Part shown: positions 11,749 to 45,100 of the stretch, piece by piece
Layout of the letters: each line of letters opens with the position of its first letter
Position numbering within the stretch: the stretch's first letter is position 1
Assembly (NCBI GenBank): GCA_032622095.1
Contig: CP136062.1
Coordinates: 151,398,875-151,462,874, forward strand
Source of the DNA: Siphonodentalium dalli
Lineage: Eukaryota; Mollusca; Scaphopoda; Gadilida; Siphonodentaliidae
Length of the DNA stretch: 64,000 nucleotides
Reading direction: 5' to 3'
The notes under the pieces: model-generated
Databases searched by the model: none
Told to the model about the DNA's origin: nothing
Seen by the model: the letters and a program-made list of their open reading frames with translations, nothing else
Program-made: the position numbers and the translations under genes

Positions 11749-12271
11749 CTATGGAATCCTATTACGGCCACTTGCTAATGGCGCTTTTGGCGCTTTCGGC
11801 GCATCGCGCCGAAAGCGCCTAAAGCGACAAAAAGTGCGCCATTAGTAACGCGCCGAAAGCGCCGAAAGCGCCGAAAGCGCCGAAAGCGACAAAAAGTGCG
11901 CCGTAACGGCGCACTATTTGTCGCTTTCGGCGCTTTCGGCGCTTTCGGCGCTTTCGGCGCGCCGAAAGCGACAAAATGTGCGCCATTAGCGTTGTTTCGG
12001 CGCGCGCCGAAAGCGCCGAAAGCGACAAAACATGCGCCATTACGGCGCACTTTTTGTCGCTTTCGGCGCTTTCGGCGCACCGCGCCGAAAGCGACAAAAT
12101 ATGCGCCATTAGTGCAATCGGCGCGGTGCGCCATTAGTGCATTCGGCGCGGTGCGCCATTAGCGCGGTGCGCCGAAAGCGACAAAATATGCGCCATTAGC
12201 GCATGTACAATTAAGTATGTGATCACCCCAGCAGGGGTGCCGGAAGAGGGGGCAGAGTGGGCAGCTGACCC

Positions 12272-13141: not shown

Positions 13142-13625
13142 TGGGGTGATCACATACTTAATTGTACATGCGCTAATGGCGCATATTTTGTCGCTTTCGG
13201 CGCACCGCGCTAATGGCGCACCGCGCCGAATGCACTAATGGCGCACCGCGCCGATTGCACTAATGGCGCATATTTTGTCGTTTTCGGCGCGGTGCGCCGA
13301 AAGCGCCGAAAGCGACAAAAAGTGCGCCGTAATGGCGCATGTTTTGTCGCTTTCGGCGCTTTCGGCGCTTTCGGCGCTTTCGGCGCGCGCCGAAACAAAG
13401 CTAATGGCGCACATTTTGTCGCTTTCGGCGCACCGCGCCGAAAGCGCCGAAAGCGCCGAAAGCGACAAATAGTGCGCCGTTACGGCGCACTTTTTGTCGC
13501 TTTCGGCGCTTTCGGCGCTTTCGGCGCGTTACTAATGGCGCACTTTTTGTCGCTTTCGGCGCTTTCGGCGCGATGCGCCGAAAGCGCCGAAAGCGCCATT
13601 AGCAAGTGGCCGTAATAGGATTCCA

Positions 13626-15716: not shown

Positions 15717-17028
15717 ATGTCAATTCGAAAAAGGTATAGTTTTGTCAAACATTTTCCCGAGGAATCACTTTACGGCGCCCCGGGAAAATACAGAAAAATA
15801 TCGGAGGAGGAGTTATACCAGCAATGGCTTCGTGAAAATTCCCATCTTCATTCGAGTCCAAATGGCGATGAACCCGAGCCGAAATTCATCAAGGTTTTCC
15901 GAGATGGCGAAGAGTACTTGCTTAGAAAGAAAGAGGCCCAAAGAAACAGCTCAGCGTCGGACTCAGCAAGGAGTGACGGCGGAAGCCCAAAAAGTCCCAC
16001 AAATGAGGTCACCGAAACTCCGTGGTTCAATGAGCTCAAAGAGAGTACCGTGGACGTTAAATCGAGTACACCAATTAATTACGCTAAAACTAATTCAGGA
16101 CCGCGATCGCAAATTACCGTGGACGCATTTGAAAGTAACAAGTTAATTGATCATAACATTTCGATAACGAACGGGACATCCGGGCAAGTGGGCGAAAAGC
16201 AGACGACCGGGGGACAGAGAAGCGACTCCTATCGGGGTGATGGTTCCTCCTCGAATGATTCATCTGAATGGGGCGGTCATGTTAGGCCTTTAGATGATAG
16301 TATAAGCAGCGAAGAAAGCGGAAAGAACTATGTCGATGAAATGGGAGTGCCGCACTCCAAAGGGAAGTATTCGTTTACAGCTGCGGAAGAAAGTTTTTCA
16401 AAGGTATCAGCGAGCCCTCGACATGCGCAGATCAAGCCGTCACACAAAAGCGCTTCGAGCAACGAAGACAACGACGTGATTTTAGAGGATTCTACTGTAC
16501 AGTATACTAATGGAAAAGGGATTCGCTACGAGGATTTGTACCCTGTGAACACTGACCCCGAACTGATGGCCAAAATGGCGTCGTCAGGGAGATATATTGT
16601 GAAGCAGGAAGGCGATACTAAAGTAGCTTACTATGGTCCTATTTTTCTTAATTCTTCTTTTGGTGGCAAAGATGGGCTTCAGCTTAAACGCTTATCTGAA
16701 GACAAGGGAGAAGAGGATGTTGGACTTGACTTGATGTTGGATAATGCTATTGACTGTAAAATCGACTCCATTGCTTTATATCGTACGCCAGATTCCAAAC
16801 AACAACAACAACAACAACAACAGACTGAAACATTGGAGAGGGTATATGCACCAAGCCTAGAATCGGTTCGTTCGGATCAGCTTCAGTGTGTTTCGCAAGC
16901 TGAGATTCAGGCAAGCTTAGTTCCATCCCTCCACTGTGTATATAATTCCGAGAAAGATGCAAAGGGAGACTTGGAGAATACCAAGGAAAATGTGCCAACT
17001 AAAGAACCAACCGACATTCAACCAGCAG
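15717..17028 (+). CDS. HSPA12-like gene, exon 1
   Basis: Encodes residues 1-437 plus the first base of codon 438. It starts [20 protein letters not shown] with A at -3, and ends CCAGCAG|GTGAGA in phase 1. The N-terminal ~75 residues ([30 protein letters not shown]) look folded and charged. The middle is S/T/N/E-rich and probably disordered. Residues about 270-345 ([38 protein letters not shown]) again look ordered. A CAA/CAG run gives Q8. No known domain is recognised. Codon usage is even and there are no internal stops over 1.3 kb, which strongly supports coding. Confidence 0.85.
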
Positions 17029-20000
17029 GTGAGAATTTATGCTAACTCTGTTGTTGAGAATCACCAGATGTGGCACACACTGGAAAGTTTGCTTGTTATT
17101 TTTTCAAGCATTTCGTCATATAAAACCATATAGTGCCGGCATAATATGAACGGCAATATGTTTTATAAAATACATTAATACCAAAGCTGACGACTAGAGA
17201 ACTGAACATTATGCAGTTCCACATGTAACGGTGCACAGGTGCTACTAACATTGGCCTTCAAATACCTGTATGATTGATTGTTCGAGATAACTGCATGATA
17301 TATTTACAGGCAAATTTCCATAGCAGCGCTACAGGTGGATCGATAGAGTTTTTATTTCTCACGTACAGCTGTGGTACATAAGCATTTTAAGCATTTTTGC
17401 CTTCGTTTACTGACATATGGTAATTTGCTATATCAAAATGCCTACAAATAAATACCAGGAAAATTTGCGAAGTGTGAACTACATATGGTCTACTTCCAGA
17501 GACGTGAAGAAAGGGGGTTTGGGAGTGTCCCCCACCAAATTTGGTCAAACTTTTCAACAGTTGCAAATTGCATGCCCAACACAGCATTAAATGTTACATC
17601 AGGCATATCGGTTGTATAATTGTTCTCATTGTTTGATTTTCTAACAAGTAATTAGTGGGGAATTTGTTGTTTTTAGACCAAGAATGGCATATTTTTCTAC
17701 TTTTGGTAAAAGATTTTGTCTGAAATGGCCATCAGTTGCAAATTTTCCAACCTTATAGGGGAGTTGGAGTTGGATAGTTTGTCAGAGGTACCGTCTACTG
17801 CATTCTTATCCTAAATTAGACAGTATTCGTCCTGTTGATTAAAAATTATTTTGGTGGAACATAGTTATGTAGTAAATAGGAGGACCGTTATTTGTCTTGT
17901 ATTGTCACTTTCGGCGTCTGTTGGCAAATCAGATTAATCAAAGAAATGGGGCATTGCATACGTTGATGCCAGAAAATTAGTCTGACGATGACTTTACATG
18001 AATTATTGGCAAAACTAGTTCAATCAAAATAACAATTTGGATAGTTTTGAAAGATCTATGGTCTTCAGTGTTTCATTTAGGGACTGGCTTTTCCTTGAGT
18101 CGTTGAGATTTGCCAAAGTGAGCGAAAATTGTATTTTGAGAGAACTGAAGCTTCCTGAAATGTTTTACGAAAACCCTGTGCCAATATATTCTCTTATATG
18201 TGCGAGTCTCGCAGAGGGAACCTCGTTTAAATAAGAGATTGCATTGGCGTGTATAACAATATTTACATTGACACTGTAAGCCGGTGCATTCTCTGATATA
18301 TGCGAGGCTCCCTATGGACAATATGACCATCAATTATGACTTTGTTTTATACTGATAAATCTATACATATTGTTCGGGAGATGGGCACACCATCGCTACT
18401 AGTAGAGAAATATAAAGGCGTTTGCAATGTGAATGTAAGTTATACTCATGTTATACTCATGTTATACTCATGTTATACTTGGTAATATTGGTTTGACAAA
18501 TTTGGTATGAATTTCCGGCTTTCGCGAATGGTCATCTATATATAGACTAGTGGAGTACGGTTGTATCTGTTCTCTTCGTTGATTTGGTCACTTTGAGTGG
18601 GGTTACATCACAATTTCTATTTTATCACATAAGTAGCTCATAAACCCGACCTCATATTTTTAGAAAGATACACGTGTATTATCAGCAGTGACATAATGCA
18701 GTGACATAATGTGATTACGTGATAAAAACTAAAAATAATTTTTCAAATTCGTGGAAATTCTATACGAAATTTATTATCCTCGTCTATGTACTAATTCACT
18801 AAAGCTCGGCTCGAATCTAATTTAGTGCACTCGGTTAATAAATTTCGATAGAATTGCGACTCATTATAGAGATCCTCTATATATCGAAATCTGACTTGTA
18901 CTCATACTACCATATATTATAGGTAACGTCAAGCGAACGCATTAACCTTAATAGCGAACTTTATTGAGTGAGACATCGCGTTATCTCAATCATAATCGCT
19001 ACATATGCATGAACCATCAGATTAACTCACGTTAGTGACGGTAGTAATTAGGTATGTTGCGTATTTACCAAACAGCTGATGCGTGGCTGGGAAATGATGG
19101 ATGAATCGGGTTCAAGGCTTCTAGCTTTTTACCGTGCGAAAGTATATTATATACTCGATCGAGTCACCTGGGGATATAATATCAATAAGATAGCAATCTG
19201 GTACACATGCACCTTTGGTAAATACACCCGTAATATACTACACACAGGTATGGGTTGATCCGATTTCCTGAGTCGGGTTGTCCCATGTTTTGAATAAATA
19301 ATTTTTGTCGTATTTACAATTTATTATTCATATTTCTCATGAATACATTCTCCAAAATCTTCAATATGCACGACATTGTTTACTTGCAGATCATAATGTT
19401 AAATCAGATAAATGTATATCAAGCTCCCACAGAATGTCCACACCAAAGTGAAACATCCCAGTAAAAACACGCTTTCCCGGCCAGTATCCGTACAGTCGCC
19501 CCGACTTCTTGACTTGACGCTCCGAACGTTTCCTCGAGTCGTAACATGTCCCAATTTTATTGTATATGTGACCCGCCATATCAAATCCAGTCGGAAGTCG
19601 GGATTTGTTTTACCCTGTGCCAATGCATTATCTTATATATGCGAGTCGACCATAGGTCGCCTCGCATATATAAGAGAATGCATTGGCCTAACAATTTTTT
19701 TTAATTTTTTTTTAAATAAATGTTTCTCTTACAGTTTTTAGGACATAAAATAAAAAACATCCATTACCCTGCAGGGAGCCCCACACATATATAGAAGCAC
19801 ATAGAAGAGTGTCGTCTGCTCATGTTTGTCTGGGGCTCTGTATGGGTGAAATTATAAAATTGTTAAAGAATACAAGAAAAAATTATTAAAATTATTAAAA
19901 TTTTGTTAGGCCAATGCATTCTCTTATATATGCGAGGCGACCTATGGTCGACTCGCATATATAAGAGAATGCATTGGCACAGGGTAAAAAAAAAATTTCG

Positions 20001-23000
20001 ACTGGATTTGATATGGCGGGTCACATATGTTATACCAGAAAATTCGAAATAAAATCAATATTAGTTGATAGTAGCATTTCCGGACAGGGATCTTCGATTC
20101 ATATTTATTATTTTGTACCCAGGGAACTATATAAAACTTATATATATACGTGTCTATATTATATTCGATTTTATTTCGAATTTTCTGGCATAACCTGGGT
20201 GGGTGGTCAAAGCCACCAACAAGCAATTTTTTCCGCAACTAAAAAAAAATTGCTGCTTGTTTTTTTAGTGTTTTGGCAATGAGTTGGGCTTCAAAACCAA
20301 TTTGAATGAGAGAAATAATGTAATTCTAACTGGTAAACTGACTGCAGGCAGTTATCGTGTTGTATTTTGTTGCAAATTTTGAAATTCAAGATGGCCGCTG
20401 GCAGCCATGTTTTTTTGGCCGAATGACCTCAAAATGACTCATTCCAATTTACATGTCCATGTTAACATCCATGATAAATAGTATGCACAGAAATTCATAT
20501 ACAGCTGTTTACAGTGAATTTCCCCCCGCAAATCTCTGTTTTAGTTTTAAAATGGGGGGTGGGTGTCAAAAAATTGTCGGAAAAAACTGCCGAAAACGGA
20601 AAAACATTTGGCGGTGGGGGTAGGTGGGTACAAAAAATTATCGAAACGGAAAAAATGCCATACGTGCCTGAATTTTTTTTCCGACCCCCCCCCCCCCCCC
20701 CCCGGCATAATACATACAATCAAATTGGGTCATTTTACGGCTCGCGGGGCGTAGAGATCGTATGAACGCTAACAATAGTAACGAAAAAATGAACAAGTTG
20801 ATTATCGCATTGTATAAGAAAATATCGATATAAAATACCCCAGAAACTATATCAATCGTATTTAGGAAGAGATAGAACATTTTAAAGGTACTCAATCCGA
20901 TAAAACTCCTCTCAATTACTATTTCAATGGCTTCGGGGGTCAAAAATATTTGATTCGAGTCGAGGAAGTCACGCATCAAAGCTCAGATTTGTTAGATATC
21001 GATTTTAGAAATCTATTATTTTTCATTATCGGGAATACTTTCTGGCCCAGAACTCAGTCAAAATTGCGTTATTATTACCACTTGAATTTAGAGTTATCCA
21101 TCCTTGTCTGTTTGAATAGATTTTGGTGTACACATCCCGAGCAGATTACGGAAGTTGAAGGCAATTATTAGTACTCATCTCGAGTAAATAACAAATTTCA
21201 AAAATCAATATCTAATAACTCTGAGCTTTGTTTGATGGGTTCCTCGACTCGAATCAAATATTGTTTACCCCCAAAGCCAAAGAAATAGTAATATAGGACC
21301 CTCTGATCGGATTGTTGTTGTTGGAATATGTTGAGATGGGGACCCTCTGTTCGGATTGAGTACCTTTAATAAAGCTCTTTAATATCTTTAAAATGCCTCT
21401 GAACTCATTAGAGAGCAACGCGATTGAAATTAAATTATAATTGAAGGTTCCGCTAGGAATATAGGCCACCGTGCAGAAGGTATAATTTCACTTTAAAACC
21501 ACTCCGTTACAAATGGAAACCACCCGAGTAATTGTAGCGACCACCCCAGTAAGCGACCGCTCTGAAATGCGTTCATTCGAAAAACCTGCGCTTCCAGTTA
21601 TCCATTTCATAAGGGAGCTGCGCTGGTGCAGCAATAAAGATCATGTGCCAGTACATTTTCTCATATATGCGAGTCTCACATCTTATAAAGTCAAGGTAAA
21701 TATTGTCAGGCCGATGTATAATATAGTGTCTTAATTATGCGAGGCTTCCTATGGGAGACTCGCATGCATATATAAGAGAATGCACTGACACAGGGTCTTC
21801 GCATAATTTCTGGAAGCTCGAGTCATGTAGGGGTTAAATTCATTCAACATATTCGACAAAGCGAACCAGACACACCATGCACTCAACTGAGTCCTTTCAA
21901 CTATAGACACATACTTTTGCCATTAGTCACACACATTTTTCGTACTATTGTTGTCACGATCTTGGTATCATTCCATTTGAATAATTCTGTTCTGAGTTTC
22001 CATATCGAAATGACACATAATTTCATGTTAACCCTTTCGATATTGGATTATCCCATTCACTTATTTAAGTGTACAATGGAATGGTCTATTATTCATTTTG
22101 GAGTGACGTTCAGGTAACAAAAGCAGATGACAGACAGACAACAAGCTAATATAAGTGCAGAAGGATTCATATCTTTTGGTGGGAAATGTTCAGATAATAA
22201 GTTCAACAAATGACCTATTGTTGAACTTATTATCTGAACATTTCCTAAGGGACCTACTTATCAATTAGTATTTGGTATCACGGTAGGGAATCACGTGGTT
22301 TCGAGGTTGGTGAGTACCACGCATTCAATATGTGCAAAGGCACAAACACATCATATTTGAGGAACTGACACAAAACATAGCATTTTTTTTACTGTTACGA
22401 GCATATGTTGGTTTATTTTTAAAACAAGTATATACCTTATTTGTTCGGAAATACTCAGTAGTTTTCTATAATATTCTCACCAAAGTTGCAAGTCGGAGGT
22501 TGGTTGAATACACAAGCCCATATATCTAGGAGAATCCTTCGACTGTCAGCTTTGGTCAGAATGTTAGAGCAAACAACTGTGAGTTTGGACACAAATGAGG
22601 AATATATCATTATCCTAGTTTATTACATTTTTCCTCGTTCTGGCCGCGTTTTCATCGCCTCCGCCATTTTGAACTAGAATGCATTCAGAGAGATGCCAAC
22701 GTGCACAAAAATGTAATAAACACTAATTTAAAAAATAATTTCACTGTATTTTACTTAATTTATTTAATTTAATTTAATGTTAGCAAAAGAAGACAATTAC
22801 CATTTCTCATTTCATCACAGATAAAAGTCAAATTACTATATTTATTATTTAAGTAATTAAAACCAATTCCATGTTGCCGAAAGGATGAGACTTTAATATC
22901 GATTACATTTTTTTCAGCGGCATATATTGATTTTCATTTTCCGATAGTCAAAGTTGACCAAAGGAGCAATTATAAGAAATAATTAATACTATTTGTGTAA

Positions 23001-26000
23001 ATATTGATAGCAGCCAATATGCAACAATAAATATCAATAATTAATCAATAATTAATCAATAATTAATCAATAACGATCATTTTATGTAATAATAAACTCT
23101 TCAAACGGTGTTTGTGTCAACAAATGCGTTTTGTTTTGTGTTACGTCATTCGTCGTATTTGACCCGGAACTCGGCTGAAGGTTAGGCTATTCAGCCTATT
23201 GCGTCGAATTACGTAATCGCGTTTTGAATGTCTCTCTTTCCCCGCACGATAAAAAGAGGTTTTCGCACGAACCAAAAATGATAAAACTTCCCAATTATAA
23301 GTAAAAATACCCAAATGAAGGAGTCTACGTAGGTCCCGAAGGAGTCTATAGACTCTTTGATGTAGAGTTCTGATGGAGAAAATGTAGGTCGATCTATTTT
23401 TATCATAACTCTGACGTATTTTGACCTGGGAGAAAAAATCGAAATCGAGGCTCACTACGAGCATGCCAGTTTTAAATATAGAAACAGGGAATCCCGACAT
23501 AATGGCGATATCGGCGACAAACAAATAATCGAAAACAACACATAAAATAAACATAGCAAAAACGCGGCACAGTAAAAATGTCAGAACGCCACGAGGTTTT
23601 ACGTCGTTTTTGGTGACGTCATGGAGTGAAACGGAGTAGGGTGACACCAACGTACGAATCTGTCTGATCGCCATACTGTTGCGCGAGCGCACGTAATCGT
23701 GATACTCATCTACTCGAAACCACGTGATTCGATCCCCACCGTCGGAAAAGAAATGGTTAAAATATACGCGATCCGATGCACTAACTCCGGTGCAGCAGGC
23801 ATGTCATCAGCGACATGTCACCTACAAGCGATGACTAGATCATGCCACGAATATGTAATCTATAGCTACATGTGCCCATAGAGATCATACTCCACCAGTA
23901 CAAAACATGGGATCTTTTTGATGTGCTGACCGGTTCTGAGAGGGAACTTGATAACAAACAAGGCAGGGAATATATGATTTGTTAATACTTGTTCCTAAAA
24001 TCTGCTTTACAGTATGGTGTGATCCCAGCTCGAGATAACATTAATTTTGTGACTTTTATGAGCCGATATCGCAATATAAACATTGAATTAAATACACGGC
24101 AGAAATGCCCTGATCGTAAGCGATGCAAGGCGAAATCGCTCACAAATCGTTCAATTTCGACCTTCTCCTATTGTGAAATACATTATTAAGGAACATGTAT
24201 TAGCTAAGAAATATATTAACCTGCACGGTTTTTTCAGTGTTGTAAACTTCCCTGTCGCAACATCAAAATGTTCCCAGGTTTTTATTTTAACTTGTCCGCC
24301 TAATACGCACACGATTATAGATAGCGAAAGATACCTAATCGGGGTTCACGATTAGATAGCGAAAGATACCTAATCGGGGTTCACGATTAGATAGCGAAAG
24401 ATACTTAATCTGGGTTCACGATAGATAGCGATTGATATTCAATCGGAGTAAAGCGTGCCACGCGAGGTAAGGATTTGTGTTTCGAAATAAGTATCCTGAG
24501 TTAATCGGAAGGGCGATAACTCTATAATATAACGTACTTTACGAAATAACGGTAGTGTTACAGGTCAAAGTTCTGAAGTAGCATTCCATATATGAAATTC
24601 ATGAATATCCCAAAAGCTCAATATATGACATTCATGAATAATCAAAAGCTCCATATATGGAATACTACTCCAGAACTATTACATGTTGCACAAAAACCAC
24701 GGAACGGGGCTGCATGGATGGATCCAATATGGCGGCGACGCAGTGCCAAGACTAAGTCTTATTGGGTGGGTGGGTGTTTGGGTGGGTGGGTGGACTTGAT
24801 TAAGGTTAGTGTACGCTCTTTAAACATACTTCTTCTAATATCTCCGTTAATTTCGCCAATACCTCGATCCGAACCTCGCGTGGCACATGTTACTGCGAGA
24901 TTCATGACATGATTCATATGTACTCGACCGAATGCACTATAATTCCGGTGCAGCAAGCATGTCAATAACGACATGTCACCTGCAGGTGATGACTATAATA
25001 CATTTAGTTTCAAAGAACTTGTTGATGTCTCTATAATTTGTTTACCAGCCAGCCTGTCTGAACATATACGGACGTGACGATTTCTCGGTCAGTCATTTGC
25101 ATGACCAGGAATTATATGAACTGGGTGCATCCGTTATCGAATACCGAGCTTGGGGGGGGGGTATAATTACCGAATGACTAGGGTTCGTGCTGCCACTTGC
25201 CAAAATTGCCAGCGACCAAAAACAAATTCATTTGGCAAAAAAAAAAAATTGGTAAATGGATTTTTCATTTTAGTCCTAACGCCTTCGAAAGTCGCTGACA
25301 AACCGACAAAGCGATCATTTGTAAATTTGCATTCAGATGGGAGGGTGAAACAAAAATATATGTTTTCCGAATTTCTTTGAAAAACATGGCCGCCAGCGGT
25401 CATCCTGGATTTCAGTTTTGAATCCATTATATAAGCACACCCTACAGGCCGATCGTCACCAAACTTCGTATGGATCATCGGGGTCAGCTGCAGACGGGAG
25501 CTTACTATTTTTTCCGAATTTTTAATGAAAAACATGACCGCCGGCACCCATCTTGGAGTTACTCTTTGTATATATGACTAAAATCCTTTAACACACCCTT
25601 CAGGTTACATCTCTCATCCGGTCGTCATCAAACTTCATATGGATCATCAGGGTCACCTCTAGCTGGGAGCTTACCAATTTTTCATAATTCTGTTAAAAAC
25701 ATAGCTGCCAGCGGCCATCTTGGAGTTACTTACTCTTTGTGTGACTAAATCCTTTAAGCAAACCCTGCAAGTCATATCTCTCATCCGATCATCACCAAAT
25801 TGAATATAGGTCATCTGGGTCACCTCTACCTGGGAGCTTACCAATGTTTTCCAATTTCTGATGAAAAACATGGCCGCCGGCAGCCATCTTGGATTTTACT
25901 CTTTGTATGACCAAATCCTTTAGCACACCATACATGTACATGTCACATCTCTCATCCGATCGTCACCAAACTGTACATAGATCTTTGGGGTGACACCCTA

Positions 26001-29000
26001 GATGGGAGCTTACATTTTTCCCCGAAATCTGTTAAAAAACATGGCTACCGATGGCCATCTTGGAGTTACTCTTTGTATATATGACTAAATCCTTTAGCAC
26101 ACCCTACAGGTCATATCTCTCACCCAATAGTCACAAAACTTCATATGGATCTTCGGTGTGACGTCTATAGATGGGAGCTTACCATTTACCCCCGCATTTT
26201 GTTAAAACATGGCTGCCAGCGGCCATCTTGTATTTACTCTTTGTATGACTAAATCCGTTGGGTGGTTAGTATTGCAAAAACAAACCAACTTTTTTACATT
26301 CAATATCGCTCCATTAACTGTAATATTTGAAAATAGCCCCTCTCCAAGTTGAACTTCAGTGACATTGACACTTTTATTGTCACAAGCCAAAGAAAATCAA
26401 AATTACAAAATGTTCTATTTAGATCGCATCACGACCCACTTGGAGTGGATTTCGAATCAGACCATGCATGCTAGTACTGGGTACTCCTGCAAGCTTACCC
26501 AGTGACACGCTGTATATATAGAGGATCTCACATGAGTTTCTATTTTATACGGAATTTATCAACCGAGTTCACTAAATTCGATTTGAGCCGAGGTTTACCG
26601 AGGCTCAAATAGAATTTAGTGGACGAGGTTGATAAATTACGTATAAAATAGGACGAGTGTGAGATACTTTTTATCACATGATCAAATAAACGCGAAGCAA
26701 TGCGAAATATCCATCGAAAACAACGATAAAAACCGCAGCGATCGCAAGTCATTTGAAGAACGATGTGACGTCATCGCACGCGCTGATATTAAACGTGTCT
26801 CTTATCGATAATTATGAAACTGCTTTTATGGGCAAATTATGTGATAAATACTTATATGTGACCCGCCATATCAAATCCAGTCGTAAGTCGGGATTTTTTT
26901 TACCCTGTGCCAATGCATTCTCTTATATAAGAGAATGCATTGGCCTAACAATTTTTTACAATTTTAATAATTTTTTCTTGTATTCTTTAACAATTTTATA
27001 ATTTTACCTATACAGAGCCCCAGACAAACACGAGCAGACGTCACTCTTCTATGTGCTTCTATATATGTGTGGGGCTCCCTGCAGGGTAATGGATGTTTTT
27101 TATTTTATGTCCTAAAAATTGTAAGAAACATTTTTTTTTTTTAAATGATAAAAAATTGTTATGCCAATGCATTCTCTTATATATGCGAGGCGACCTATGG
27201 TCGACTCGCATATATAAGAGAATGCATTGGCACAGGGTAAAAAAAATCCCGACTTACGACTGGATTTGATATGGCGGGTCACATATGTGAATTGTTTTGT
27301 ACATCCTTCACGCAGGCCATGTGCACCGCCGAGAATGTTTGAGGGCGTGTACTTGAAATGCTATATATATATTTGGAGTGTTGTATACTTGTATATGTGC
27401 ACGCAATTGTCAATATGGTCAGGATGTTAGTGAAGTGTTTATATCCAACGAATCAATGGCATGTGAAGGCCTACAATAATATGTCTGGGTGTGTCAAAAT
27501 ATTATCCCGGGCATGGCCGAAACGTAATGACGAAATTCTTGTCTATGCGGTAAACAAATACCGGAAATGGGCAGAACATCGAAAATATCTTCTTGGCAGG
27601 GGGCTCGGTGGCTCATCGGTTAGAGGTCCAACTCCAAGCCGTTTCGCCCTCCAGCGCTGGAAATGAGGGTTCAAATCCATCGTGGACTCTGTAACTCGGA
27701 ATCGTTGCCACACATGGTCGACTAGTTTATCAGCCATTGAAATCACTGTACGATTAGCCGTAAGCGTGCGGATTTTCCCCAACACTAGAACTGGCAATGT
27801 CGTGGTATGGCCTTAGTTGATGAAAGCGACATTAAACCCCAATCAATCAATCAATCAATTAATCTTTTTGGTAAAAGTTGGGAGATTGACACACGCCGTA
27901 ATTCTTGGTGTAAAATTGTAGAAATTGTGACAGGTCGCGAGAATAGTGGACGAGATATTAATATTACGGGTAACATCATCCACGCTTGGGAGCTGCTTGT
28001 CAAACAGACCCATCTGAGCCTCAAACGTTGGGTAGACGTGGACGTTATTTTGTAGAGTATGGACAAAGATGCAAGCTTGTTGAAATTTAACACTGATTAT
28101 GAAGTTATTTTCCTAAATCGCAATTATCAACACTAGATAGTGTTCCATTTAGTTACCATGACTTTAAAGGGAGTCTAGGGACCCAATGCACTACCATTGC
28201 AGTGGTTAAATGTGCAAAAACAAATGTTTAAACCTGTCAAAATATCACCAATAAGTAAACAAGAAGAATATAGAGAAATAGACAAACTATGTTCTTACAT
28301 CATGATTGATATAGTTCTCGAATAATGCAATTTCGCGCGCGTTGAAACCACTGTTATGTAAACAAAACTGTTACTATTTATCAACAAACTTTGCAAATTT
28401 AAGTGAATGTTTCGGATGTTTTATATATATGTGGAGAATGACACTGGGTGGTACCTAAGCTCACATAATGACACTGGGTGGTACCTAAGCTCACATAATG
28501 ACATTGGGCGGTATTTAAGCTGACATGCCATGAGTAAATATGAATTGATTTAATACTAATCGAACACACAATTGGATTGACTAATAAGATTACTGCTTTA
28601 GTTTCGCATTTAGATTGGCTGGACATATTTGACATATATATATATAACTGATTGATGTTCATCTTGGTCTAATTACATGGCTAATTGTCGTACATCCCAC
28701 ACATGCTTGTAAAACATCAATCTTTATTGCGTATAACATATAGGGGTGGTCACATGCCACAGTAATAATGGATGACCAATCATTAACGCATAATCTTACT
28801 ATATTACAGTCACGTGACAGTCACAATATGTGAAGGAATTTATGGACGAAGTCATTAAATGGGCAGCTGACAAAACGATGTCACAAGTTTGCGTCACGTG
28901 ACGAAATATGGGCCACGTAACATAGGTTACACTGGTGTAAATGTTTTCCATGGGCCTCAGTGCTAACGTTTTAGTGTATAGTATTGGCAATATAAATGTT

Positions 29001-30018
29001 GGGTCCAAAATTTTCTTTAAATCTGAAAAATTGACATTTTGGGAAACTTTTTACACAACAAAATCATGTCTGTCTAGCAGGGAATTCGCCTTTAAATCTT
29101 ATGTTTTCGTAACTAGTGTCAGAACCGCATAAAAAAATACAGTCATATTTTAGACCACACCAAAAAATTCAAACTTTACTACAAAGGGTTAATTCCTGTG
29201 CCAATGGTTATTTTACCTATGGGAAATCATAGGGAAGAGGTGTGATGATTTTTTTATGTGAAAAGCACACAAGGCTATTGACCAATCAGGGCCCAGTGTC
29301 TATTTTATTCTCTCCTATATATTCCTCCCGCATCCGCTAGATGTCACTCGGAACCTTATTTACACCAGTGTAACCCATACGGCTTAACATCTTGATAAAG
29401 TCAGAGTGGTGGGGATACGAAGATGAAGCATTTGAATAACTGTCCTTTGATTAATTGTGTGGTAATTAACCAATTATATGCTAAATGAACTCTCCCAGTC
29501 AGTTAAAACGTATACATAGGAATAGTCTATTATTTATTTGCAGGGATGTACAGGTAATATCCGTATGTACAGACGTGTATCTGGTTATATATGTTTACAA
29601 TGCGAATGCATGGACATAATGCATGAACGTTGTAGACAACCCAGTCGTAATGATAAGTCCAGCAAGCATTATATATAACAATATAGAGTCAAATCGAACG
29701 ATATGCAACAATACGTTAGTCTACAACCAGACCACACACACACCCGTATACGACAGATAAAAAACAGAAGGAGTCCTATTTATTGAGGAAAATCTTTAGA
29801 TATTAAGTTCAACAAACGAACTGTGGTCGTTTGTTGAACATATTATCTGAACATTTCCTATGAGGTAACTACTCATGAATGATGCTTTGGTATAGAAATG
29901 TTGATGTTACTGGCATATATATCTCATTCGATTGTGTAATGCTGGATTTGTTATTTCTTCATTTTTGATAACCCATCCATTTGTTTGGCTTATGTATTCA
30001 TAAATAGACTATGAATCC

Positions 30019-30103
<85 letters not shown>

Positions 30104-33100: not shown

Positions 33101-36100
33101 AAGTGAATAAGGTCATAATATCCAATATAGACGGATCCTTATACATGCATTGGTAGCAAATGTTCAGGTAATAAATTCAACAAATGCCCTGATTGTTTGT
33201 TGAACAAATTGTATGCCGGGAACTACTCATCAATGAGCATTTATTAAAGAAAGGGTTATTGATATCAGACTGCTTCCGATTTAACAGCATATATGTGACC
33301 CGCCATATCAAATCCAGTCGGAAGTCGGGATTTTTTTTACCCTGTGCCAATGCATTCTCTTAAATATGCGAGTCGACCATATGTCGCCTCGCATATATAA
33401 GAGAATGCATTGGCCGAACAATTTTTTACAATTTTAATAATTTGTTCTTGTATTCTTTAACAATTTTATAATTTCACCCATACAGAGCCCCAGACAAACA
33501 TGAGCAGACGACACTCTTCTATATGCGTCTATATATGTGTGGGGCTCCCTGCAGGGTAATGGCTGTTTTTTTTATTTTATGTCCTAAAAATTGTAAGAAA
33601 CATTTATTTTAAAAAAATGATAAACAAATTGTTAGGCCAATGCATTCTCTTATATATGCGAGGCGACCTAAAAGTATGGTCGACTCGCATATATAAGAGA
33701 ATGCATTGGCACAGGGTAAAAAAATCCCGACTTCCGACTGGATTTGATATGGCGGGTCACATTATACAGTTGTCGCCCGTTGTCGAGGGAGACATTGAGA
33801 TTTGTCACCCGCTCGAGAACGGAATGTCTCCCGAGGAGCGAAGCTCCGAGGGAGACATTCCGTTCTCGAGCGGGTGACAAATCTCAATGTCTCCCGAGAA
33901 GAAGGGCAACAACTGTTTTGTTATCCGATTATACCACATAATAAAATCCTTGCCATCCACACGCACGATGTTGCACTGAGTCACGAGTGCTTTCTTTCCC
34001 GATTATGTATATTGTCAGTAAAACTTATCGTCCCATAGCATTTCTGTTCCATAAACGATAGTCAAGTTGTTAATCGTTTGATAATCCGCGTTTATTTACG
34101 ATCAATTTGGTGGTTAAATCGTCAATATCGGTCCATGCAATGTAAACCAATAAGCCATATCATGGACGTATATATACATCGCTGGCCATATAGATTTGTT
34201 CTCGTCTTCTGCAATGTGGCATATTCAATGTCGTCTTGTACGCGCAATTTACTCACGATGTTAATTTCATAACGGCCTTCCACGAAAGCTACTGGGAAGT
34301 TGTCAATTTCATTAATGTACATTCATATATATTTACATACACCTGATATCTCTTCCGATTTCCCCATAGCGTTACGGTAGACACGCCCCCTTATTCAATG
34401 CGTTCATAAACATATGAACGTAACGTGACGTCACTTTCAATGTCGTTCATATGTTTATGAACACATTGGTCCCGGAAATCACCGGGGATTGTCGGACATT
34501 ACCGACTGCTTGAGTATCTAGTCAGCCAATACGCCAAGGATTTGATAGCAAACAATATGTAATAGAGGTTCACGATTGAATGGCTAGTGGCATCTAATCG
34601 CGAGCACGGGTGGCACGAGATGTTCGATTGACTATCAGAATGTTGGTTATCATATAATCCCATATCCCATAATATGTCAAATATAGCGAATTATCGAAAT
34701 ATGAAATACAACGAAAAAGCGAAATATGAAAATACAGCGAAATAGCACGAAAAATCGAAATAGGAAAATACAGCGAAATAGGGTGTAATATAGAGCGAAA
34801 TATAGAAATAGGAAATAATTTTATAAACGAAATAACGGAGATATTTGAAAAAGTGTTTTTGACGAAATAACGGACATATATGGAGAAGTGTTTTAAAGAG
34901 CGTAAGTATATAAATATAAATAATAAACGGCGGATTCAACGTGGTCATGGGTTTTGACCGCGATAAAAAATCAGGAAACTCCGCATGAACCCCTTCGGGG
35001 TTCATGCAGTTTGCTGAATTTTTCTCGCGGTCAAAATCCCATGACCACATTGAAACCGCCGTTCATTTCTTATGTGTCAGTGCTCATGGCGATCCTCACA
35101 TAAAATACTTCTATGATCACATTGCAGACATCGCGGAGGATAAGCGTGCAGTACAATTCATTCGCGACAAACGTATGCATTACGTTGTCTACCAGGAACA
35201 TTTATAACCAACCAACCTCAAGGGATCCTCTCTTTCAATCTTGCATCATAATGTCGACATGAACAAATTGATTCACCGAGATGTTTCGATGTAAAAAGTA
35301 AATAATAACGCTTGTCCAATAAAAATATCAACTTAAAAGTTCGAATATTAGTGTTCACTAAATATATGCAAATTAGCAAACACCACAACCGGCGTGTATT
35401 GCGAATCCGTGGGGTATATAAGATCTATGATTTTTTAGTATGTATAGTGATGTGAAATAGATGAGTTACTGCAGTGTGTGTTTGGAGATATTCTTGCAAT
35501 ATAACATCAGGCGGGCGACAAAAACAATGTCTCCCGGCTCAGCGGGCGACAGTGTGATTTGTCGCCCGGCACGTGACAGGACATGGGCCAATCAGAAGGG
35601 TGGAAAATAGGGAGGAGGATAACAATATACAGTTGTCGCCCGTTGTCTCAATGTCTCCCGAGAAGAAGGGCAACAACTGTTTTGTTATCCGATTATACCA
35701 CATAAAATAGCCTTGTCATCCACACGCACGATGTTGCACTGATCGAGTCATGAGTGCTTTCTTTCCCGATTATGTATATTTTCAGTAACTACTTATCGTC
35801 CCATATGATTTATGTTCCATAAACGATAGTCAAGTTGTTAAGCGTTTGATAATCCGCGTTTATTTACGATCATTTTGGTGGTCAAATCGTCAATATCGGT
35901 CCATGCAATGTAAACCAATAAGCCATATAGGTATGTTCTCGTCTTCTGCAAGGCATATTCAATGTCGTCTTGTGTGCGCAATTTACTCGCGATGTTCATT
36001 TCATAAAGGTCTTCCCCGAAAGCTATTGGGAAGTTGTCAATTTCATTAATGTACATTCATATGTGTCAGTGCTCATGGCGATCCTCACATAAAATACTTC

Positions 36101-39100
36101 TATGATCACATTGCAGACATCGCAGAGGATAAGCGTACAGTACCATTCATTCGCGACAAACGTATGCATTACGTTGTCTACCAGCGAACATTTATAACCA
36201 ACCAACCTAAAGGGATCCTCTCTTTTAATCTTGCATCATAATGTCGACAGGAACAAATTGAATCATCGAAATGTTTCGATGTAAAAAGTAAATAATACGC
36301 TTGTCCGATAAAAGTATCAACTTAAAACTTAAGAATATTAGTGTTCACTAAATATATGCAAATTAGCAAACACCACAACTGGTGTCTTTTGCGAATCCGT
36401 GGGGTATATAAGATCTATGATTTTTTAGTACGTTGTAGTGATGCGAAGTAGATGAGTTACTGCAGTGTGTGTTTGGAGATATTGCAATATAACATCAGGC
36501 GGGCGACAAAAACAATGTCTCCCGGGTCAGCGGGCGACAGTGTGATTTGTCGCCCGGCACGTGACAGCACATGGGCCAATCAGTAGGGTGGAAAATAGGG
36601 AGGAGGATAACAAATTACTTTCCTATACTTTTGCAAGTAACGAGTCGAAACGTAACGTGACAATCGCTTGGTATGACAGTATGACATAGCAATCGGCAAC
36701 AGTTAACTGATGACGATACTTTCGAAACATGTTGGCATCTTTTCAACTCATTTGGGGGTAAAATTTCCAAAAATGTCTAAATTCTTCTTTTGCCATAAAA
36801 TAAAAACATTTTGGGGGTACGTTCTAAAACAAACTCTTTTCAAAATATTCCATTAACCCTCTGCATGATCCTAATTCCATCTCAAAATTCATGTCATGAG
36901 AACGACGAGCAATTTGTCTGCGATAAATTGGAATCTTGGTCATTATTATATTTAGCCTCTTCTTTAATATGCCTAGCAGACATCCTCCCATTTAATATGC
37001 CTAGCAGACATCCTCGCCTTTAATATGCCTAGCAGACATCCTCCCATTTAATATGCCTAGCAGACATCCTCCCCTTTAATATGCCTAGCAGACATCCTCG
37101 CCTTTAATATGCCTAGCAGACATCCTCCCCTTTAATATGCCTAGCAGACATCCTCGCCTTTAATATGCCTAGCAGACATCCTCGCCTTTAATATGCCTAG
37201 CAGACATCCTCCCATTTAATATGCCTAGCAGACATCCTCGCCTTTAATATGCCTAGCAGACATCCTCCCCTTTAATATGCCTAGCAGACATCCTCGCCTT
37301 TAATATGCCTAGCAGACATCCTCGCCTTTAATATGCCTAGCAGACATCCTCCCATTTAATATGCCTAGCAGACATCCTCGCCTTTAATATGCCTAGCAGA
37401 CATCCTCCCCTTTAATATGCCTAGCAGACATCCTCGCCTTTAATATGCCTAGCAGACATCCTCCCCTTTAATATGCCTAGCAGACATCCTCCACTTTAAT
37501 GTTCTTAGCAGACATCCTCCCCTTTAATATGCCTTGCAGACAATCCTCCCCGTTCTCGTGCCATCCTTACATTTATGTACCACCTTCATCAGGTGTGAGA
37601 ATTATATAACATATAGGTTGTAAGCTATTATTTCTTTCGCTATATATACCTAAGTTGACATTCGGAAAGGCTTTATAGTCCATCAGCCGGCGCTCCATTT
37701 TTTTCTGACCCTGTCAGACCTCTCACTTTGTCAGACACCCACATACCTATAATGGTTACCAGTAAAACATATGAAAACACATCGAGAAAAGCTTTTCGTG
37801 AAATTTTGGGTGATCGCATTTCGATAATCATGGTCAATATATAGGATGCAGGTTATATGGCCTCGTCATGATTTAAACACGTCTTTCATCTGTAGAATTA
37901 GGATCAGGGGACCTCAGCTGGCACACATTTTCATGTCAATCAAAAATTTACAAATAGCAGCACACAGGTTTATCTAACTGATGTAAAACTTTCATAAAAA
38001 ACATAAGCGGAAAAATAAGAGAGAGAAAAAAACAAGAAATTCACCTTGAAAACGAGACTGCACAAGTTCATGTTTTAAGATTCACTATAACATGTGCTCG
38101 GACTGGATCTCAAATAATTATCAAATTTTCTATTCTTTCATAAAAGTTATCACACATTCTATAAATTATAAATGATGATATGGTGGGTGAATCTAAAATA
38201 TTATTATTATTACCTTTTTTTTGTGTTTAAAAATTTTCTATTTTGCAGAATTTAATTTTAGTTGCCCATTCTCACAGTAAACATGTGATTCTGGTCATGT
38301 CAAGTGAGGTCCCCTGATCCCTGATTCTGTCAATCCCCAACAGTGAAGAAAAGTGCGTATCTCCAAGGGTTATAACCTACATGTTATGTGCTCTCTGTTT
38401 GTCTTTCAGAATATGCACCAGAGAAAAACAAGCCCAGCTCTGGTGATTCCAAAAAATCAAAGCAGGAAAAGGATCGCAGCAGATCGAGTTCCAGCTCATC
38501 TTCGTCATCTTCATCATCGCACTCCGAGGGAAAGAAGGACAATTCTGCAGGAGATAGCAGAGACCTAGCGGCGAAGCTATCCGTTAAAGCGCCCGAGAGA
38601 CCAAACGTCGAACAGGCACAGCTTGGATCGTACAATGCAACTATAACAGCAACATTACCGTCAGTAAAGATATCCCGAACTAGGTCGGGATCGAACTCTT
38701 CAAAATCAGGAAGGAGCAGATCACCTTCCCCAACACAAAAAGAAAGGTCAAGGTCGTCTACATCGAACTCATCTCGGAGTCGGTCAAGGTCACCGAAGAC
38801 GAAGAAGAAGAAGCCACGAAGCCGGTCGGGATCTTCGTCGTCTTCGGCATCGAACCGGAGCAGGTCCAAGTCGCCGACCTCAAAGGGCAAAAAGGGGTCC
38901 GGGTCAGGGTCGCCATTCGTAATTGAAGTAAAGTCAGAATTTACCAGAGACCTCAACAGGAGCAGGTCAAGGACACCACCTTCGCAACGAGAGAATACGT
39001 CAGTGACAAAACCGACGTTACCCAGAAGGAAAGACTCTCGATCATCGTCGTCAGGGTCAAGTAAAAGTGGGCAAAAATCAAAATCTCCAGACCCAACCGA

Positions 39101-42100
39101 CGACGAGAAAACCAAACCGAGATCCAGATCATCCTCGTCGAAATCCACGAAGTCAAGGTCGAACTCGTCTTCATCCAAGTCATCGCATTCGAGATCCCAC
39201 TCTTCTGTCGACAGACAAATGGCAGATAAAACGCCACAAACCAGTGGATCAGTAGGGATAGCTGTGAGACCGCCTGACCTCCCTGATAGTGAAGATAAAA
39301 TATCAGCTGCTGCAGAATGGGTCATCAATACCAGCCCGGGCGAACATGACGTCAATTTGAAAAGTCCAGACGGCAAAACAGTTGGGCCAACACACATAGA
39401 GGCGTCTCCTAGGATCGACATATCGAAGCCACAAACGGCCACGATGATCGACCACGGAGCAACAGGTGGCACAGTACCAGCTTTGGATATGAAGGATGAA
39501 GAAATAATATGCGCCCTTACACCACAGCTTGAATCGAAGCCTGGTCACATTTCTTTGGAATTCACTTCTCCGATCGTGGACACGGACTCTGAAGTTGATT
39601 CGCCAAGAAAGCCAGAACTCCCGACATCAGAACCACCAGAGTTTGACATCGAAACAAAGCCGGTTTGTCTTGATATGTCAGGCAATGATATCAGTTTCGG
39701 ACATGATACCTCGAATATTTCGGATATCACAACTCCTGACATACAACCCCTATCGCCTTTGAATGTTGATATGCCGTCATGGCAACTGGCAACAGACAGA
39801 CCTTCTGTAGACGTCAGTCCATCCAGTGTTCATACTGAACACGATACTTCAAATATATCGGATATCACAATTCCTGATATACACCCTCTATCGCCTTATG
39901 ATAATATGCCATCATGGAAGACGACATTAGACAGTCATTCTTTAGACGTATCTCATCCAAATGTTCAGACTGAAACACAAACAGATATCAAGATTAAAGG
40001 TCCGGATACACAATGGAAGATGGTCGGAGAAACGCCAGACACATTGGGCCAATCATTTGAAATCGAGTTTCCACCCAAACAAGATGTTAAAAGAATGCCT
40101 TCAAGAGAGATGCCTGTAATAATTGACGAGCAGTTGATTACTAAAAGAGCAAGTGACGTTTCATACAAACTTCCAGATTTGGCACAACTAAAAGATCCCT
40201 ATTTTCACAAAGATCAACCCAATGATCTGACGAATGGTTCGGTGGAGGTGAAACGTCCGGTCGCCAATGGAGATATGTCTGTTCGACCGAAGATCAAACA
40301 ACCTGTTATTGTGTCACTTGACATTGACGACAAACAGAAGAAACGAAGATCCTCCTCTTCCGGTTCCAGCAGCTCCTCGAGTTCGTCCTCCAGTGAAGAC
40401 GAAGTGATTGACAGAACAAAACCTGAAATTAGTATTTCATCACCGGAAATAGTGGATGCCGACGTCATGGGTAGAATGCATATAGATGTGCGATGTGAAT
40501 CAACTCCTCGCAGTGCAACGTATGTGGAAGATGATGCGAGTTTCGTGACTGGTAAGTGAGCTTATACACAATGGGGAATCACGTGGTTTCGAGGTTGGTG
40601 AGTACCACGCATTCAAAATTTAAAATTGGATTTTCCGTACGTTACTTGTGGGGCGCACCTCACAAGTACCCTGTGGTGCGTACGTCTGTCCGTCCGTCCG
40701 ACCTCATAACTCGAACAACTATGAACCGATTTCAATAATTTTATGTATGCAATCTCCTTAGGATGGTCTCTCCGCGTGATGCTAATTGCGGTTCGGTCCG
40801 ACTTTTTGTTTTCAAGTTACGCCTCTTTTTCGACTTATTTTGACTTAGAAAATTCTTTCCGACTTAATAACTTTAACAAATTTGAACCGATTTCAATAAT
40901 TTTTGGTATACATGCTTCTCACAATACCCTCTCTACATGATGCGGATAGGGATTGGCTCAGACTGTTTTTCGTAATATTACACCTTATTTTCGACTTATT
41001 TTGACTTAGAAAATTCTGTCTGACTTAATAACTTTAACAAATATGAACCGATTTGAATATTTTTTTCTGTACAAACTTCTTGTGACACCATATCGATATT
41101 ATTAGTCCGAATTTTTCTTTAAAGTTAAAAATCTTGTTGGATGAGTTTACGGATAATGCTGGTTGAATTTGCCACGGTGGGGGTATGCTAGCACTCGAGT
41201 GCACACGTCTTGTTACTTTTTTCTTCGTTTCTGATCGCGTTTGCGATCTCATCGGCCATTTTGAATGCGTGATACTCTTCAACTCCAAACCACGTGATTC
41301 CCCACCTTGTTATAACTTATACATGTTCATAAGCACTATATATGGTCTGCTATTAGACACATTTCGTATAATGAACAACGACAGATAATTATTACTAATA
41401 GGGTACCACGTCATTAGAATTTGTGTTCTTTCTATTCGTTGTCGTTTTTCCCTATTCGTTGTTACGATTACGGTTTCGGATTTTGAACAAAACTCACAAA
41501 TACATCATATAGTTATAAGTTCGGGATCGTTTATCAGCTCCTAAATGTTGGAGATGATTATGCGATTTTGTCCTTAAATTGTGATAACCATTATGCGAAA
41601 GGTGTCTCTTGTTGTCGAATCTTTTTCCCCTGTGATTTATAATTGTAATGGTCGTACTCTATCGGCAAATACACTGAAAAAGTGCTCTCATAAACGTGCA
41701 AAGTTTGGTCTATATCATGCCATGAATATCTACTCTATAGCTACGCCCGTATAGAGATCATATTCCACCAGTACAAAGCCTGGCTGCCTGGGTTTTTTTT
41801 ATGTTGTGACCCGTTCTGACAGGGAACTTTATAACAAACAAGGCGGGGAATATACTTCTTGTCAATACTTGTTCCTCAATAATATACTTCACATTAGGGG
41901 GTGGTCCCAACTCAAGATTGCATGGTATTCAGTGAGTTTTGTGAGCCGACAGCGATTGTGCTAAGTAAAAAAAACGTTATTAGGGTATAAAACGCATGTG
42001 CTGAACAGCTAAGTTCTGCACGGAAGCCCATATCACGACAACACTTGGGGGCATCGTGTCCTCATTTGTAATGATTAGACACTGGATTCAATGCCGCCAC

Positions 42101-45100
42101 GAGACTGCCTCTTGCTGTAGATGGGGAATGTCACATCGTTCAATGTCATAACCAACTGGTATGTACCCTTTGGTTCCTTGGTGCGAAGTCACCAAGGAGA
42201 TGTCCTTAAGTTATGTGTTTAATTATGCAGTGAATGGCTTTTTTTTTCTTTCAGCAAAAACGAGTTTAGAGGCCGAATCTCCATTTAAAGGAAATGCTGA
42301 ATATTCAGAAGCAGACGACAAAACTTACATCCGGTCGCTTTCTGACACCGGATTAAGAATACAATCCGACATCGAAAGGCTGGACGACGCCATTACCGGA
42401 AGTAATACATATATTTCTGAGGATTCCGGGGTGGGCTCCCTCGGACGACATCATCCACACTTTGTCGTCGTTGCTATTGATTTCGGGACGGCCTTGAGCG
42501 GTTATGCGTTCAGCTTTATCCGTGACCCTGACAGTATACACGTGATGAGGAAATGGGAAGGGGGCGATCCAGGGGTTATCAACCAAAAGACGTTGACGAC
42601 ACTCTTGCTGACACCAGACGGCGAATTTAGCTCGTTCGGATTCGGTGCAAGGAACCAATATCATGACCTAGAACCAGATAAAGCGAAGAAGTGGCTTTAT
42701 TTCGATAAATTCAAAATGATGTTGCATCACAGTAAGGTAATAATACTAAAGTTCTAAATGTACAACATGCACGACGGTTGAACGGTAAATTGTCAGGCAA
42801 TTTTTCGAAGATAGCTATTTCTTACACATATTTGATAAACCATTTGATAAGCATTTCATTACCTTAGAGTGTAATATCTGTGATTAGATCATTGGAATGC
42901 CACAAGTGGTTGTTTGCCAATGGTATAATAATAAGCTCGAAGCATATAGGATGAATTAAAGGTACTCAATCCGATAAAACTCATCTCAATTACTATTTCA
43001 ATGGCTTCGGGGTCAACAATATTTGATTCGAGTCGAGGAAGCCATACATCAAAGCTCAGATTTTTTAGATATCGATTTTAGAAATCTATTTTGTTTCATT
43101 ATCGGGAATACTTTCTGTCCCAGAACACAGTCAAAATTGCGTTATTATTACCACTTGATTTTAGAGTTATCCATCCTTGTTTGTTTGAATAGTGTTTTGG
43201 TGTACACATCTCGAGCAGATTACGAAATTGAAGGCAATTATTAGTACTCATCTCGAGAAAATAACAAATTTCAAAAATCAATATCTAATAACTCTGAGCT
43301 TTGTTTGATGGGTTTGATATAGTAATATAGGACCCTCTGATCTGATTGTTGTTGTTGGAATTTGTTGAGATGGGGACCCTCTGATCGGATTGAGTACCTT
43401 TAAAAGTCTAAAGTATCGACACTTGGCGATGATAAATGTAGTGTCGTATTTTATTTGTAACCTATAATGCTAATTAACCCTTTCAAAACTAAACACTCAT
43501 TGATGAGTAGTTATTCTTTAGGAAATGGTAAGATAATAAATTCAGGTCGTTTGTTGAACTGACACCGAAAATTCAGGTCGTCTGCTTATATTACCTCTAC
43601 ATCCACACAAAATAAATAATAGACTGTTCCAATTTACACTTTTTGTTTACTTGGTGGGAGAATAATTTTAGTATAGAAAACGTGTTATCTCCATGAGTCA
43701 AAATATTTTTCAGGGATGATGTTCCAGTCGAAAATAGAAATAAAACGTGACTCTTTTAATAATAATATTAGGAAATTGTAGATAAATACGAATAACATAC
43801 TACTCTGGCCGATAAAGGCTACTCCGCGGTAGATTCTCTGAGAATAATTTATGGTAGTGATAAGCAGCGCAACCCTATAGCAAGTTCCTCGTCGTCGTTA
43901 TCTTAATGTCAAGTGGGGCGCAGTGTGTGGTGTATACTAACATAATATCATGATTCACAAAGTTAACCCTTTTTATAATAAAGCATCATTGATGTGCAGT
44001 TAAAACATAGGAAATGGTCAGATAATAAGTTCAACAAAAAGGTGCATGGACAACAACCTTGGTGTTCTTTTATGTTCCAGACGACCGTGACATTTGGAAC
44101 TTATTCCCTATTCCTTATTCGAAAGAATAGTCGCAGTGTGGCTGAATAGGTCACTCTCACCGGTTTTCTGTGATAAAGTTACCCAGGTTCCTGAAATTGT
44201 GATAAAGTTACCCAGGTTGAAGAGGAATGTGATAAAGTTACCCAGGTTAATAACATTTTTGCGATCAAAATGACGAACTACAGTACTAATATGTCTTAAT
44301 TTATGCTTACTAAGAGCTCTTACTTGCCAAAAACTAAACAATATTTCCTCTTTCACTTTTAAATCGAGTTGATATTGTGAGATTTGCTTAACCTGGGTAA
44401 CTTTATCACAAATCTCTCCAACCTGGGTAACTTTATCACAACTTTAGGAACCTTGGTAACAGAAAACCGGTGAGAGTGACCTATTCAGCCGCAGTATGTG
44501 GCCAATTTGACCCATGTCTGTGTGGCCTGCCCAGAATACTCCCTATAGGTCATGGATGGGGTGTTTCTAAACAGTTCCCAAACAGGGTTGAATTGACTGC
44601 TTATATCTGCATGGGGACGGCAACAGAATAACTCTGATATTAATATCAAACATGACATATATATATATTATATATAAGTATAGTCCATATGAACCTATAA
44701 TTGTGAATGTATGATCTTGTTCTGCTAAACCGTTTGTTTATTTTCAGTCACACAAGTATTTACTTACAAATGTATGTCATAACACGAAGCCCTTGACACA
44801 AATACCTTCCGATCATAACTGAAGGATGCCTGATTATTCTTTATAGTATCTCAATTGCACGCGAGAATAAAACTGTCAATGCGTTGTTTCAATGATTACC
44901 CATTATAGTACTCGATAGAGAAGTGTTCTCTCTGATCTTTGTTTGTTTGATCACCAAACTGAAAACGGCCGGTCTAAGATATCTACACCCACATATAAAT
45001 AGTTTGTCCACCGGTACAAAATCTGGGAACTTTTTGGTATTCTGACCCGTTTTGACAGGGAACTTTATAATATTAACCAAACAAGGCAGAAAATATATTT

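Follow-up and report, generated by a model that had tools for sequence, protein, structure and literature searches.

Proteins of the HSPA12 family (Hsp70-12) carry the motifs DxGTT, EPxAA, GGxT and LxGG and have a mean mass of 74.01 kDa (PMC12692333, in excerpt), and the human genes of the family have 12 coding exons (PMC2266713, in excerpt). The family is greatly expanded in bivalves: Crassostrea gigas has 73 copies and the Yesso scallop 57 (PMC10969875, in excerpt). The locus described here lies in a stretch of 64,000 nucleotides from the scaphopod Siphonodentalium dalli (GenBank assembly GCA_032622095.1, contig CP136062.1, positions 151,398,875 to 151,462,874 of the forward strand), hereafter the window. 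It encodes an ATPase of the HSPA12 type which is preceded by two long exons, the second of which carries a segment rich in arginine-serine (RS) dipeptides. RS domains are stretches of at least 50 residues with more than 40% arginine plus serine (R+S), in addition to RS/SR repeats.

It is moderately probable that all of these exons belong to one predicted gene of ten exons, encoding an HSPA12-family ATPase with an RS-bearing N-terminal extension of 1,151 residues. The weight given to this reading comes from the length of the open reading frames (ORFs), the splice sites and the phase. A single gene is also the most economical model of the locus, since the splice sites are strong, the phases match and there is only a single, weak alternative initiating exon.

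The predicted gene and its ATPase

The predicted gene extends from 15717 to 63233 on the + strand. Its introns have GT..AG borders and its exons join into a single frame of 1,817 codons plus stop, giving a protein of 1,817 residues and 200.5 kDa. The exon coordinates and codon counts proposed in an initial annotation, which reached as far as exon 3, were verified, as was the matching phase: translation of the joined sequence of exons 1-3 proceeds without an in-frame stop. The exon 1 ORF opens at 15684, directly past an in-frame stop, and AATAAA or ATTAAA is found 3' of exon 10 at 63276, 63387, 63525 and 63529. The exons, together with the end of intron 2, are as follows, splice sites being ranked by score among the 3800 GTs and 2994 AGs of the + strand.

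15717..17028, + strand: exon 1, ATG start, 437 codons plus one base, mostly disordered
38410..40551, + strand: exon 2, 2142 bases or 714 codons' worth, phase 1-1; RS segment followed by an acidic Pro/Ser/Thr-rich half
42152..42254, + strand: end of intron 2, open in the exon 3 frame; its ATGs (42161 and 42200) might serve as an alternative start
42255..42736, + strand: exon 3, a disordered lead-in of about 70 residues followed by the beginning of the HSPA12 ATPase
46926..47147, + strand: exon 4, ATPase; weak acceptor, rank 311/2994
51236..51428, + strand: exon 5, ATPase with LEPEAAS motif; donor rank 1/3800
58624..58746, + strand: exon 6, ATPase with CGGGTVD motif
59640..59842, + strand: exon 7, ATPase
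60712..60880, + strand: exon 8, ATPase
61807..61935, + strand: exon 9, ATPase with FLVGGFAES motif; weak donor, rank 174/3800
62755..63233, + strand: exon 10, end of the ATPase and stop codon

Exons 3-10 encode 666 residues with a mass of 74.6 kDa and an isoelectric point (pI) of 8.51. Residues 71-665 are colinear with residues 7-568 of an HSPA12-like protein of 570 residues from a Trichodesmium metagenome-assembled genome (MAG; L001:2296-4008), with 33% identity and an expectation value (E) of 5e-100. Six residues of the bacterial protein precede the match; the ATPase is therefore taken to be complete in exons 3-10, and, judged by sequence, it is a complete HSPA12-type ATPase. The Hsp70 domain PF00012 matches with 27.4 bits against a curated cut-off of 20.6. 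In the PDB, 40 distinct sequences match exons 3-10 at E 1 or below; distantly related canonical Hsp70s head the list (E 8.4e-5 at best), and unrelated chains are the weakest.

Three of the four Hsp70-12 motifs are present: EPxAA (LEPEAAS, exon 5), GGxT (CGGGTVD, exon 6) and LxGG (FLVGGFAES, exon 9). In place of DxGTT, the first phosphate motif has the sequence DFGTA. The Trichodesmium relative carries DFGTS at this point, and the position therefore varies among relatives. As this motif deviates while the other hallmarks are present, the label ‘HSPA12-type’ is used, without a claim to strict membership. The ‘textbook HSPA12’ of the initial annotation needs qualifying: DFGTA departs from the family motif, and the stretch then described holds the first ATPase exon only, with seven further exons completing the domain.

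Relatives of the ATPase were also sought among prokaryotic and viral sequences. Two of the 49 candidate stretches retrieved with exon 10 from genome_contigs encode relatives, both in cyanobacterial MAGs, while exons 3-10 gave no pattern match in viral_contigs and exon 10 no relative in phages (tblastn). An Okeania MAG contains an ORF of 770 residues (L002:3153-5465) with an HSPA12-like C-terminal part and an N-terminal part that appears, by eye, to be unrelated.

Exon 6 begins within a 58-bp tandem duplication (58555-58670, three differences) that repeats its acceptor and the first part of the exon. The two acceptors are about equal in score, 4.1 for the upstream site at 58566 and 4.0 for the downstream site at 58624, and splicing to the upstream site would end the frame at codon 1484. 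The three differences are all at the GGGT motif, which is intact in the downstream copy only.

No additional exon of phase 1-1 and 30-300 bases was found between exons 5 and 6 with an acceptor of at least 2 and a donor of at least 1.5, thresholds that would miss weaker borders such as some used by the gene itself. Intron 1, which is 21 kb long, holds no candidate exon whose borders are very strong on both sides, with an acceptor of at least 8 and a donor of at least 7. Scans of the window with Rfam and for tRNAs (bacterial code) gave no match. Three-unit heat-shock elements are absent from the 1 kb 5' of exon 1, the 1 kb 5' of exon 2 and intron 2; two-unit matches occur at 37795, 40848 and 41009.

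The predicted RS-bearing extension

In the predicted protein, exons 1 and 2 place 1,151 mostly disordered residues before the ATPase. By charge-hydropathy, 82% of windows are disordered in exon 1, 85% in exon 2 and 100% in the lead-in of exon 3, compared with 19% in the ATPase. The extension is segmented by charge, with a pI of 5.1 in exon 1, 11.75 in the RS segment and 4.6 in the Ser/Pro/Thr-rich segment. For exon 1, AlphaFold run on the single sequence gives a mean predicted local distance difference test (pLDDT) score of 37.4, with 396 of the 437 residues below 50; a weak helix and a β-hairpin are predicted at residues 30-70, of which a single-sequence model says little. Exon 1 also contains a (CAA)n poly-Gln tract at about 16800. 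Pfam gave nothing above cut-off for exon 1 (best E 0.25, below its own cut-off) and no match up to E 10 for exon 2, and exon 1 had no counterpart in the PDB at E 10 or below. Three features of exon 2 are referred to below.

38469..39209, + strand: RS segment, residues 458-704 of the joined protein, 247 residues, pI 11.75
39702..39980, + strand: internal repeat, two adjacent copies of 46-47 residues
40350..40403, + strand: second poly-serine tract leading into an acidic run; the ten-serine run mixes TCN and AGY codons

Exons 1 and 2 look coding, their ORFs being far longer than expected by chance. From stop to stop they span 453 and 727 codons, respectively, whereas no ORF longer than 198 codons arose in 30 Markov simulations of the 64-kb window; in simulations with each exon's own composition (300 per exon, over three times the exon length) the longest were 260 codons for exon 1 and 277 for exon 2. 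In the internal repeat, the 45 aligned codons differ at 9, 8 and 15 bases by codon position, with 9 silent and 16 replacement codons, giving nonsynonymous (dN) and synonymous (dS) divergences of 0.24 and 0.46. Over the first 19 codons, which were picked for their conservation, the values are 0.05 and 0.62. Of the three forward frames, the reading frame has the highest codon score both in exon 1 and in exon 2 when each is scored as a whole, which lends weak support. An antisense ORF of 386 residues (38384-39544) in exon 2 mirrors the serine and arginine codons and was rejected as a gene by inference.

Residues 458-704 contain 46% R+S and thus have the composition of an RS domain. They include 37 RS/SR dipeptides, where 19.9 (standard deviation 3.6) are expected from the same composition, and none of 5000 shuffles reached 37; the dense RS/SR dipeptides of the initial annotation are in this way substantiated. 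This excess at equal composition fits selection on the dipeptide itself. Among the 55 ORFs of at least 100 residues in the window, that of exon 2 alone exceeds 28% R+S in a 100-residue window.

The excess also tells against the idea that the extension, although joined to the ATPase, is merely a serine-rich disordered spacer with no splicing-related or nuclear role. This idea is possible, if doubtful, and it would sit well with other properties of the segment: serine dominates (85 S, 29 R and 28 K in 247 residues), 16 KS/SK pairs accompany the RS/SR pairs, and no RNA-binding domain appears in the Pfam scans. In particular, these scans, run up to E 10 on all ten exons, show no RRM, a domain of which classical SR proteins carry one or two.

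An origin of the RS segment as a DNA microsatellite was considered and rejected: of 54 rows listed by Tandem Repeats Finder, exon 2 contains none, and both of its long serine tracts draw on TCN as well as AGY codons. The tract at 40350..40403, with its acidic run, resembles a CK2-type substrate.

Predicted joining of the extension to the ATPase

The splice sites between the extension and the ATPase are among the best of the + strand. The donors of exons 1 and 2 rank 2/3800 and 3/3800 and the acceptors of exons 2 and 3 rank 9/2994 and 2/2994, so that the exon 3 acceptor is indeed strong, as first described. Only four + strand donors score at least 6, those at the ends of exons 1, 2 and 5 and one at 24467, and 12 acceptors score at least 7, including those of exons 2, 3, 5 and 7; both cut-offs were set after the scores were seen. 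Going 5' from exon 3, the first donor of at least 6 belongs to exon 2, and the acceptor of exon 3 alone scores above 8 in intron 2. The phases agree at both joints (exon 1-2 and exon 2-3), although a phase match by itself is weak evidence, as it arises by chance about once in three times per junction.

These features bear on whether two adjacent genes might be present, one for an RS-rich protein that includes exons 1-2 and has its end elsewhere, the other for HSPA12 with a start of its own. Such an arrangement is quite improbable. The exon 2 donor is followed by the exon 3 acceptor as the next strong one, in phase; neither AATAAA nor ATTAAA occurs in 40551-42255; and intron 2 offers no good alternative first exon. 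Two genes would nonetheless be consistent with the lack of any detected relation of exons 1-2 to Hsp70 (Pfam for both exons, PDB for exon 1), with a stop within three codons on read-through past the exon 2 donor, and with a mild difference between exons 1-2 and exons 3-10 in the GC content of third codon positions (GC3).

Several observations count against a single gene with the extension. The frame of exon 3 is open back to a stop at 42149 and contains ATGs at positions 42161 and 42200. The product of exons 3-10 is by itself of typical HSPA12 mass, which makes it possible that transcription also starts from a promoter of its own close to exon 3. Late ATGs in exon 2 (40275, 40467 and 40476, for example) are likewise in frame with its donor. 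The splice scores come from an approximate generic textbook matrix. Eight of the 12 + strand acceptors of at least 7 lie outside every model exon, and the - strand, as a control, has eight acceptors of at least 7 and two donors of at least 6, one of which (8.7) beats all + strand donors. In codon score, all three forward frames of exons 1 and 2 score higher than any of 285 intron window-frames, themselves included in the background; in the RS part, other frames equal or exceed the reading frame, and a synonymous-only score does not favour it. GC3 is lower in exons 1 and 2 (0.435 and 0.426) than in exons 3-10 (0.515). In viral_contigs, 600 stretches fit the exon 1 pattern and none is related. 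Finally, the ORF at 23141-23803 has no Pfam match, and as it was the sole intron 1 ORF scanned, a nested gene in that intron is possible.

The ATGs overturn two statements of the initial annotation, namely that there is no usable start before the ATPase and that an upstream coding exon is required; with in-frame ATGs just 5' of the exon 3 acceptor and exons 3-10 being HSPA12-sized, the argument for the second fails. The proposal of a single gene with an RS-bearing extension therefore keeps its standing as the most economical model but loses its argument from necessity.

A further alternative, partly compatible with a single gene, is one locus with two promoters, at which an ordinary HSPA12 (~70-75 kDa) would begin near exon 3 or at an ATG in exon 2, the long form being a minor or tissue-specific isoform. 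This is unlikely. Besides the ATGs at 42161 and 42200 in the exon 3 frame and those late in exon 2, it could draw on the size of the product of exons 3-10 (74.6 kDa, pI 8.51), which is close to the family mean of 74.01 kDa (PMC12692333, in excerpt); the joined protein has 200.5 kDa. Between 40553 and 42200 in intron 2, one phase-compatible alternative initiating exon has a donor of at least 1.0: a tiny phase-1 exon of three codons at 41922-41931, with a score of 1.4. By score it is possible, because the donors of exons 3-9 score from 1.3 to 7.0 and 1.4 falls just inside that range. A TATAAA at 41986 is uninformative, since 1.2 are expected per 1.7 kb here. Moreover, a start just 5' of exon 3 would mean that the polypyrimidine tract of the second-best acceptor of the + strand is translated.

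Repeats are found in the introns and upstream of the gene. Intron 2 contains an element resembling a miniature inverted-repeat transposable element at 40572-41304, whose inverted arms measure 22 and 26 nt, with 95% and 88% complementarity, and enclose a core that carries a 161-nt direct repeat. Two different introns hold what is apparently one 174-bp tandem repeat family (48181-48799 and 55090-55871), with near-identical consensus units. A dispersed repeat at 6852-7214, 20866-21171 and about 42960-43260 was recognised by eye from near-identical ORF translations and from similar DNA in intron 3. Upstream, 11775-12162 and 13210-13615 are two inverted copies of a repeat made of GCGCCGAAA/CGCTTTCGG units; their ORFs start with identical residues on opposite strands, and the copies are perhaps the arms of a mobile element. 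A 63-bp unit repeated 13 times at 10499-11315 leaves two frames of the minus strand open, over 252 and 335 codons; these ORFs are probably an artefact of the tandem array.

Proposed function and relation to known systems

If exons 1-2 are joined to exons 3-10 in the mRNA, the extension could act as a module for localisation or condensation that is switched by phosphorylation. The RS serines would be targets of kinases of the SRPK/CLK type and the SSSS-EDE tract of a CK2-type kinase, and the tail would position the ATPase, probably in the nucleus. Since exon 2 is of phase 1-1 it can be skipped in frame, which might yield an isoform of 1,103 residues lacking the RS segment and so toggle the location of the protein. 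A nuclear-speckle location and SRPK/CLK control are reasonable extrapolations from composition. The full proposal, an HSPA12 ATPase with a genuine RS domain, targeted to speckles under SRPK/CLK control and with exon 2 skipping as a switch, is tentative and somewhat unlikely as a whole.

Were it true, an ATPase of the Hsp70 family would be built into the condensate system of splicing factors, and the link between a stress ATPase and splicing-factor bodies would become directly testable. We know of no clear account of what the expanded HSPA12 copies of bivalves do. An RS-tailed copy would suggest that some HSPA12 copies have been rewired by localisation modules, beyond mere multiplication, although the link to bivalves is conditional.

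A literature search by titles and the openings of abstracts, with most subscription journals outside its scope, turned up no indication of an RS domain on any Hsp70 or HSPA12; annotations of similarly built predicted proteins may already exist elsewhere. Human HSPA12A RNA is spliced by SRSF11 (PMC9670187, in excerpt), which is a matter distinct from a fusion of the two kinds of sequence.

Of the known systems, animal HSPA12A and HSPA12B share with this protein the EPEAA, GGGT and LVGG motifs, in a comparison that covered motifs, mass and gene structure. Taken alone, exons 3-10 have a mass like the family mean (PMC12692333, in excerpt), against 200.5 kDa for the joined protein, and both genes are multi-exon, with 10 coding exons here and 12 in the human genes (PMC2266713, in excerpt). 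The differences lie in the 1,151 extra N-terminal residues with their RS segment and in DFGTA as opposed to DxGTT. The Trichodesmium HSPA12-like Hsp70 is colinear with the ATPase over nearly all of its own length and lacks the extension. With SR and SR-related proteins the predicted protein has in common a segment of well over 50 residues with more than 40% R+S and an excess of RS/SR; unlike them, it has neither an RRM nor another splicing-factor domain in the Pfam scans, and an Hsp70-type ATPase takes their place. The predicted protein is thus best read as an architectural variant of HSPA12.

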